From the NCBI GenBank assembly GCA_000508305.1, contig CP006977.1, positions 1,086,621 through 1,150,620 of the forward strand: a stretch of DNA of 64,000 nucleotides. Reading direction: 5' to 3'. Source of the DNA: Sulfolobus acidocaldarius SUSAZ. GTDB taxonomy: Archaea > Thermoproteota > Thermoprotei_A > Sulfolobales > Sulfolobaceae. This document shows positions 29,397-50,817 of this stretch, one piece after another. Every line of letters starts with the position of its first letter. Positions within the stretch are counted from its first letter, which is position 1. Under the pieces are notes generated by a model. The model made no database searches, was not told the origin of the DNA, and saw only the letters and a program-made list of their open reading frames with translations. Position numbers and translations under genes: made by a program.

Positions 29397-29561
29397 ATGC
29401 CTTCGCACGGTTCATTAACAAAGGCAGGCAAAGTAAGAAACGCAACACCTAAAATGCAAAAGAAAGAGAAACATAAAGAAGTTCCTAGGGTTAGAAATAG
29501 ATTAGAGTATGAGAAAAGAGTCTTAAAGTCAGGTCAACAAAGTAGAGCAGCGGCAAGGTAA
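29397..29561 (+). CDS. rps30e: ribosomal protein S30e
   Basis: A 54-aa, strongly basic protein ([19 protein letters not shown]... ending QQSRAAAR) that is recognisably the archaeal/eukaryotic small-subunit protein S30e (eS30), including the '[11 protein letters not shown]' start. ATG at 29397-29399, TAA at 29559-29561. It is leaderless or nearly so: the A/T-rich stretch TTAAGTTTAAATTT at 29363-29376 is about 25-30 bases upstream. Stops 31 bases before gatD. Confidence 0.93.
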
Positions 29562-48563: not shown

Positions 48564-48590
48564 AACAAAAAAGTATAAAAAGGAGTATAA

Positions 48591-48731
48591 ATGATTAGTT
48601 GTGAAACAAAAATGCTAAGACGTGAAAATTTCAATCGTCTTGCAGTTGAATTAAAAGTTGAAAATTCTCTTATAGATTTATTTTTACTTGTATCCTCTGT
48701 TTCTTGTTCATCATCAATCTCATCATGTTAA
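48591..48731 (+). CDS. Ser/Cys-rich upstream ORF before serA, possible leader peptide
   Basis: A 46-codon ORF (ATG 48591-48593, TAA 48729-48731) with GGAG 48582-48585 upstream. An internal ATG at 48612 lies about 25 bases after a TATA-like GTATAAAT (48584-48591) and would give a 39-codon leaderless peptide. The peptide ends 'LLVSSVSCSSSISSC': eight Ser and two Cys in the last twelve residues. The next gene, 36 bases on, is serA, first enzyme of serine synthesis. A hairpin with arms AAGACG and CGTCTT lies within it at 48615-48640. The function as leader is inference; it could also be spurious. Confidence 0.5.
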   Translation: MISCETKMLRRENFNRLAVELKVENSLIDLFLLVSSVSCSSSISSC

Positions 48732-48767
48732 ACACTCTTTGATAATTCTTGAATGGGTGGGAAGACT

Positions 48768-49700
48768 ATGCAAGTCAAGATACTAATAACAGACCCTATA
48801 AGTGAAATTCTCATAAATAAATTAACAAAATATAATATCAAAATAGATTATAGACCCGATATATCAAAAGAGGAATTACAAAAAATAATCTATGATTATG
48901 ATGTGATAGTAGTAAGAAGTAGAACTAGAATAGATAAAGAATTAATAGAGAAAGGTAAAAAATTAAAAGTAATTGCAAGGGCAGGCATAGGAATAGATAA
49001 TATAGATACTGAAGAAGCTGAAAAAAGAAATATAAGAGTTGTATACGCACCAGGTACATCTACTGATTCTGCTGCAGAATTAACAATAGGACTAATGATA
49101 GCAGCAGCAAGAAACTTATATAACGCTATAAATTTAGCAAAATCAGGTGTATTCAAGAAAGTTGAAGGAGTAGAGCTTGCTGGCAAGACAATAGGAATTA
49201 TCGGGTTTGGAAGGATCGGAAGTAAAGTCGCTACCGTTGCCAACGCTCTCGGAATGAAAGTACTAGCTTATGATATACTTGATATTAAGGAGCGAGCTCT
49301 GAAAGTGGGAGCAGAACCTTGTACGTTAGATGATATGTTACCAAGAGCCGATATAATAACACTTCATGTGACTGTGGGTAAAGAAACAAAGTATATTTTA
49401 GATAAGGAACAATTTGAGAAAATGAAAAACAACGTTATTATAGTTAACACCAGTAGAGCAGCTGTGGTAAACGGAAAGATATTACTTGAATTTATCAGAA
49501 AGGGAAAAATATTTGCATATGCTACCGACGTATTCTGGAATGAGCCTCCTAAAGAAGAATGGGAGCACGAATTACTTAGACACGAGAGAGTAATAGTCAC
49601 CCCTCACATTGGAGCACAGACCAAAGAAGCTCAAGATAGAGTGGCAGAAGTTACCGCACAAAATCTGATAAACGTAATGAAAGAGATGAGGTTGATTTAA
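48768..49700 (+). CDS. serA: D-3-phosphoglycerate dehydrogenase, short form
   Basis: A 310-aa NAD-dependent dehydrogenase opening the phosphorylated serine pathway. NAD motif '[17 protein letters not shown]', '[17 protein letters not shown]', '[16 protein letters not shown]' and 'VTPHIGAQT' with catalytic Arg, Glu and His positions. It lacks the C-terminal ACT domain that gives serine feedback inhibition in longer enzymes. ATG 48768 ([10 protein letters not shown]) with GGGTGGGA upstream is preferred over ATG 48753. It is one base from the aminotransferase gene. Confidence 0.94.
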
Positions 49701-49701
49701 A

Positions 49702-50817
49702 ATGTTATTAATACCGGGACCTGTAGAGGTTCCAAAAAGTGTTCTAGCTGCAACTAGCCTAGTAATAGACCATCGAGGGAATAAATTCAAAGATATAGTT
49801 AATAGACTTGAAAAACTTATGATTAAACATTTCTCTTCTGAGAGAGTAGCTCTTCTTACAGGTTCGGGCACACTTGCAGTTGAAGCTATGGTTTATTCAT
49901 TTACTAAAAGAGGTGAAAAAATACTAGCACTTTCTTATGGCGAGTTTGGACGAAGACTTGCAGAGTCCATAAAGAGAAGGGGAGCAACATTAAGACTGTA
50001 TGATAAACCTATGGGACACTCCTTTTCATTGGAAGAAGTAAAACAGATTATAGAAGAAAATAAAGATGTTACCACAGTAGCACTAGTGCATAATGAGACT
50101 AGTACAGGAATTGCACTGAGAAACTTAGAGGAAATAAGTAGGTTCATTAAAAACAAGGGATTAAGACTAATAGTAGACTCTGTATCTGGCTTTGCTGCTT
50201 ATCAATTAATGGTTAATGAATGGAAAATTGATGCTGTTGCAACTGGTAGTCAAAAAGCTCTAGCATCGGTACCTGGATTGGGCTTTGTAGCGGTGTCTAG
50301 AGATGGCTTAAACGAAATAGTGAATGAAGATTTGCCAACATATTTAGACGTATCATTACATTTGAAGTTTCAAGACAAATACGAAACACCGTTTACCCCT
50401 GCAACAGGAGTATTTAACGCTACGTTAAGAGCTGCAGAATTACTTGAGTTAGAAGGAGTAGAACGAAGATGGAAAAGACATGAAGCTTGTACAAAGTATG
50501 TAAGAGACGCTTTATCCTACTTTGGTTTCAGTCTATTAGGTAACGAGAATAACTTTTCTAATACAGTTGTCGCTGCAATTCCACCTATAAAGGATTATAG
50601 AGCTAAATTAAAGGAGTTTAATGTCGAAATAGCGGGAGGTATGGGAGAACTTAGAGATAAAGTTGTTAGAATAGGTCTTTTAGGTATAGTGGATGATAGA
50701 GCAGTTATGAAGCTAATAGGAATAACAGCAAGAATGTTTCACAGCCAATATGAAAAAGAACCTCCATTAGAATGTAAACTTCCAGAAGAATTAAGAGAAG
50801 AGATTGAATGGAGTTAA
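49702..50817 (+). CDS. class V aminotransferase, serine-pyruvate/alanine-glyoxylate type
   Basis: A 371-aa PLP enzyme. '[14 protein letters not shown]' is the N-terminal hallmark; '[13 protein letters not shown]' holds the PLP-binding Asp and '[18 protein letters not shown]' the Schiff-base Lys. Coupled tightly to serA, it may provide phosphoserine or serine-glyoxylate transamination, so the pair could make serine from 3-phosphoglycerate; a phosphoserine phosphatase is not seen here. The exact substrate is uncertain. Confidence 0.9.

Follow-up and report, generated by a model that had tools for sequence, protein, structure and literature searches.

In nearly all Sulfolobaceae genomes, serA is preceded by a short open reading frame (ORF) with a terminal run of serine and cysteine codons, and from comparison of these loci we conclude that the ORF appears to be a conserved amino-acid-coding leader peptide. 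Most likely, this leader works through ribosome stalling, sensing charged tRNA-Ser (and tRNA-Cys) and so controlling serA and the aminotransferase gene next to it. To the complete reading, in which a Ser/Cys leader sensor acts through release of the serA Shine-Dalgarno (SD) sequence, we give a probability of about 0.6. In the window (the whole 64,000-nt stretch of DNA that was analysed), the gene order is ogg (with an Ogg-HhH domain), leader ORF, serA. The Ser/Cys-rich ORF that a preliminary description of this DNA had reported before serA is indeed present: it runs from ATG 48591 or ATG 48612 to a TAA at 48729-48731, its final 12 codons before the stop (SSVSCSSSISSC) hold eight Ser and two Cys, and its stop lies 36 nt from serA. 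The features of the locus are as follows.

48573-48580, plus strand: TATA-like box GTATAAAA, predicted promoter of leader and serA; its centre lies ~35 nt before ATG 48612
48612-48731, plus strand: leader ORF of 39 codons, product MLRRENFNRLAVELKVENSLIDLFLLVSSVSCSSSISSC; frame and position kept in 29/30 serA loci
48693-48728, plus strand: Ser/Cys codon run (8 Ser and 2 Cys in 12 codons) proposed to act as the sensor
48720-48724, plus strand: UCAUC within the terminal Ser codons, predicted to pair with the serA SD (RNAalifold and single-sequence folds; no covariation)
48755-48761, plus strand: serA Shine-Dalgarno region GGGTGGG, ~7 nt before ATG 48768
48768-49700, plus strand: serA, D-3-phosphoglycerate dehydrogenase without ACT domain
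49702-50817, plus strand: class-V aminotransferase, starting 1 nt after serA

Of the two starts originally considered for the leader, ATG 48612 fits both the relatives and the TATA-like box. ATG 48591 is unlikely, because related leaders align to ATG 48612 and the TATA-like box places the transcript start downstream of 48591; this upstream ATG lies just 14 nt from the centre of the box, is not conserved and was rejected. A TATA-like box is found 27-38 nt (mostly 31-38, about 34 overall) ahead of the leader ATG in 28 of 29 loci, while none was consistently present directly ahead of serA across the loci examined. Placing the transcript start at the usual distance from the TATA box predicts a leader 5' UTR of only ~5-12 nt. 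The relatives carry GGTGA or a close variant at the position of the serA SD. Most Sulfolobus mRNAs are leaderless (PMC11627041, PMC10653856); unlike this majority serA has an SD, which fits a gene that is not the first on its mRNA. Presumably, serA and the class-V aminotransferase gene share one transcript, which would then probably carry two adjacent serine-pathway steps, where we infer the pathway assignment of the aminotransferase. A domain search of SerA matched two 2-Hacid_dh domains only and no ACT domain, as the preliminary description had stated.

For the family survey, we used 31 Sulfolobaceae genomes, all with serA, and examined 30 loci with their flanks closely. In 29 of these, from nine genera, an ORF of 31-40 codons occupies the same place, with 5-9 Ser, usually plus Cys, within its last 14 codons and a spacer of 18-41 nt, containing the serA SD, between its stop and the serA ATG. 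Directly before the stop, the tails read, for example, FSSSSSSSC, SSISSSLSSC, FSSSFSSSC, VSSLSCSS or RSCSSSSQ. Across species, the last 14 codons comprise 49% Ser and 8.1% Cys, compared to 6.8% Ser and 0.2% Cys in the remainder of the ORF. In the 30th locus (L031, genome G004), the ORF at the orthologous place ends in FYWSCWQ before its stop, the Ser run being replaced; the W, S and C of this tail are all serine or derived from serine. No similar ORF was seen upstream of serA in genome G005, whose assembly is incomplete (low completeness). In the spacer, at 48732-48754 in the window, the motif ATTCT recurs in most genera, e.g. taaACTAATTCTT.

The leader DNA is alignable only in a sister genome, plus 52 nt in one other genus, and the N-terminal 20-25 residues differ almost wholly between genera, with the reading frame kept. 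Ser codons drift synonymously among TCA, TCT, TCC, TCG, AGC and AGT, and relatives also differ by in-frame gain or loss of entire Ser codons. Since the leader DNA has diverged while the Ser tail stays, the coding pattern outlives the DNA. Within the genus, dN/dS of the tail is just moderately low (0.70, gapless alignment). The alignment of relatives that had been put forward as a check thus shows frame, Ser run and position kept across nine genera with synonymous drift, and we regard it as nearly certain that this leader is a genuine ORF under selection for its Ser/Cys codons. The conserved open frame could also mean that the ORF encodes a working small protein whose tail is rich in Ser and Cys; it had no Pfam match, but small proteins often escape such searches. 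It is Ser density rather than exact residues that is kept, however, the N-terminal part differs between genera and the ORF invariably adjoins serA, all of which makes such a protein improbable.

A chance pyrimidine-rich stretch, the accident that the preliminary description had allowed for, can account for the Ser run only with very low probability. Dinucleotide shuffling of the last 14 codons of this locus gave a mean of 3.0 Ser (p = 0.0025). The tail is dominated by two pyrimidine-rich codon families (Ser and Phe), and p values for single loci are often just 0.01-0.1, as a compositional accident would have it; combining one locus per genus, however, yielded p = 1.7e-9, and the alternative frames hold 0-3 Ser in nearly all loci. 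Moreover, the Ser run is accompanied by its position, an ATG, the TATA box and Cys enrichment. When the window's 320 ATG ORFs with 20 or more codons are ranked by the number of Ser in their last 14 codons, the leader comes first with 8, followed by 6 in the next.

Conservation might instead lie at the nucleotide level, in an antisense C/D box RNA (TTAACATGATGATGA), in an operator or in an RNA motif at TCATCATG. Indeed, several genera share an almost unchanged TCATCATCATGTTAA, the complement of which includes RUGAUGA. In genus g9, however, the corresponding stretch is TCGTCGTCGCAGTAA, without RUGAUGA, and genera g2 and g10 differ too, with Ser codons in frame throughout; ATG, frame and stop are also conserved, and there was no Rfam match near any gathering score. 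A nucleotide-level element is thus a marginal explanation, and the antisense C/D box RNA and other RNA families were rejected for want of Rfam support and for the loss of RUGAUGA in g9.

The choice among Ser codons is biased as well. TCA/TCG are over-used in leaders compared to neighbouring genes in 8 of 9 genera (p from 1e-2 to 1e-14), for example 41/53 in leaders versus 96/413 in neighbouring genes (p = 1.6e-14). In g9, TCG takes the place of TCA and makes up 8 of 14 leader Ser codons, compared to 1 of 36 in its serA. The genome encodes one tRNA-Ser each with the anticodons UGA, CGA, GGA and GCU, of which UGA reads UCA, and the preference for codons of the UGA/CGA isoacceptors fits a sensor of tRNA charging. 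As TCA/TCG would favour SD pairing as well, the two reasons are confounded, except in g9, where TCG gives no clear gain in SD pairing.

Folding of ten diverse leaders with RNAalifold returned a single consensus helix, pairing UCAUC of the Ser codons with GGUGA of the serA SD over five base pairs, with no covariation and a consensus energy near zero; this arrangement is suggestive of translational attenuation. In single-sequence folds, the SD is paired mainly with Ser codons in ~17 of 29 species, and in most species pairing with the SD is greater for the natural codons than for randomly chosen synonymous ones, at modest p values. The predicted pairing has little strength at 75 °C, and some species (g11, one g9 genome) lack it. 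Simulated stalling raised SD accessibility in many species, though not in the genus of the window at 37 °C. Apart from the Ser-codon/SD helix, the folded leader alignment holds no Rho-independent terminator or antiterminator, so that classical terminator/antiterminator attenuation was rejected. The serine-sensing leader proposed in the preliminary description is supported by conservation, but its hairpin switch is not: the window does contain the AAGACG/CGTCTT hairpin and, before serA, AAGAC, but both are confined to the two genomes of this genus, and we rejected them as the mechanism.

From these comparisons, it is very probable that the leader would sense serine/cysteine supply to control serA. 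The leader product itself would be irrelevant, with the Ser (and Cys) codons serving as the sensor. At low seryl-tRNA, above all of the UCA-reading isoacceptor, or low cysteinyl-tRNA, a ribosome would stall in the terminal Ser/Cys run, cover UCAUC and block its pairing with the serA SD (GGUGA), allowing translation of serA and the aminotransferase gene. With plentiful serine, the ribosome would finish and depart, and this pairing or another leader structure would damp serA. Given a sensing leader, we put the freeing of the serA SD at roughly even odds. We prefer SD release on account of its sign, since starvation should raise SerA, which neither reinitiation nor factor-dependent termination would do.

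If the sensor worked via transcription instead, stalling or release would alter ribosome-RNA polymerase coupling and thereby FttA/aCPSF1-type termination before serA. This version shares the leader evidence with SD release, archaeal polarity has been attributed to FttA (PMC12548453), and the spacer is AU-rich with the recurring ATTCT; yet no conserved terminator-like element was recognised by eye in the spacers, and a stalled ribosome should favour termination and so lower serA when serine is scarce, which is the wrong sign. We therefore consider transcriptional control unlikely. Still less likely is a leader that merely delivers ribosomes, feeding serA by termination-reinitiation with the Ser run as a secondary feature. 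The spacer is short in all species (18-41 nt), as such a device would need, but spacings above ~30 nt between ORFs allow little coupling of this kind (PMC12548453) and about half of the loci exceed that; in addition, serA owns an SD, and the restriction of 49% Ser and 8% Cys to the ORF's terminal part would be left unexplained. By acting on SD release, the leader would instead provide gene-level feedback on an enzyme without a serine-binding ACT domain, and such control would explain how Sulfolobaceae regulate SerA in its absence.

In bacteria, regulation of amino-acid genes through the translation of a leader peptide is textbook knowledge. The proteobacterial his, leu, thr and trp leaders carry regulatory codons for the end product of the pathway, with particular codons over-used. 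Both end-product codons and codon bias are found in the Sulfolobaceae leaders too, whereas the proteobacterial attenuators switch Rho-independent terminator hairpins, of which none was seen here; to our knowledge, archaea lack this type of terminator. T-box riboswitches likewise sense tRNA charging upstream of amino-acid genes, but do so by binding the tRNA directly, and a T-box covariance model had no match in the leader-serA region. In translational attenuation of the ermC type (described in PMC10219788), stalling of a ribosome on the leader is taken to release the main gene's Shine-Dalgarno, as we propose for serA; stalling there depends on drug and nascent peptide, whereas here it would depend on codon and tRNA, and the SD helix is short and predicted. 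The nearest studied system, going by its description in PMC9031893, appears to be the polycysteine leaderless short-ORF attenuators of mycobacteria (Canestrari et al. 2020). By that account, these resemble the serA leader in having a short ORF at or near the mRNA 5' end, a run of codons for the sensed amino acid and operonic linkage to the target, and their elongation speed depends on that amino acid, as would be the case in our proposal. They differ in being bacterial and sensing Cys only, whereas the leader here is archaeal, with mainly Ser plus Cys codons, and its regulation is predicted.

Our literature search, which covered neither subscription papers nor preprints, yielded no named case of an archaeal leader-peptide attenuator, and one review devoted to translation initiation in archaea uses neither "attenuation" nor "leader peptide" nor "upstream ORF" as a term. 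A paper describing a tool makes the general remark that leader ORFs also function in archaea (PMC10219788), and ribosome profiling of Methanosarcina lists candidate uORFs without an assigned mechanism (PMC11456600). A family-wide leader in genetically tractable archaea makes control of downstream genes by stalling at hungry codons directly testable, and also lets one ask how such control would operate at 75-80 °C despite the weakness of RNA structure there.

Outside the Sulfolobaceae, a Ser/Cys leader was absent from ~60 other serA loci of the order (39 from other families and 20 further ones), as well as from the named Thermoproteales and korarchaeal serA loci examined. The tail VGCQWSCFRC (before its stop) in genome G047 was dismissed as a parallel leader, as it overlaps a conserved N-terminal part of serA and G118 does not retain it. 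At locus L049 (G108), a single case, the upstream gene has a Ser/Cys/Trp-rich end (FSPSSSCSWC before its stop) ~50 nt before serA, possibly an independently evolved sensor. In family f8 (L038-L047), GGAGGTGGTGCCGTTGGATTCGGC directly precedes serA and is nearly identical in nucleotides across several genera; a short out-of-frame ORF (GTG GTG CCG TTG GAT TCG ... stop) overlaps it.

A shared arrangement, SD(GGTG)-N7..9-TTGTC(G/A) with the serA frame NTT-GTC, was found at 23 serA loci from five families and one korarchaeote. With a spacing of 7, an in-frame GTG is present; with 8 or 9, twelve loci (L050, L053, L055, L057, L061, L063, L072, L085 and L259-L262) have no canonical in-frame serA start. 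Loci with spacing 8 would require either frameshifting (+1 at NNT-TGT-C, a Cys codon, or -1 from TTG) or initiation at a non-AUG codon. It is conceivable, though doubtful, that serA of Thermoproteota is generally under translation-based serine/cysteine sensors, with leaders in Sulfolobaceae and a recoding signal at the serA start in several other families. The latter would consist of SD-N8-TTGTCG, in which the only GTG/ATG close by has serA in its +1 frame and the Cys codon UGU sits at the shift point, and would permit SerA synthesis when Cys-tRNA is scarce.

In a screen of 2040 upstream ORFs covering ~99% of the genome, the leader was the top match that overlaps no other gene, and none of the remaining top matches stands before a gene from the pathway of the amino acid that it is rich in. 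As the screen holds no second amino-acid-matched leader, a general archaeal leader mechanism for many pathways was rejected. Elsewhere in the window, a short intergenic ORF on the minus strand (29415-29474) has 4 Cys in its last 14 codons; it lies 75 nt before a Nop5/Nop56-like gene (identified by eye), with no link to cysteine metabolism seen.
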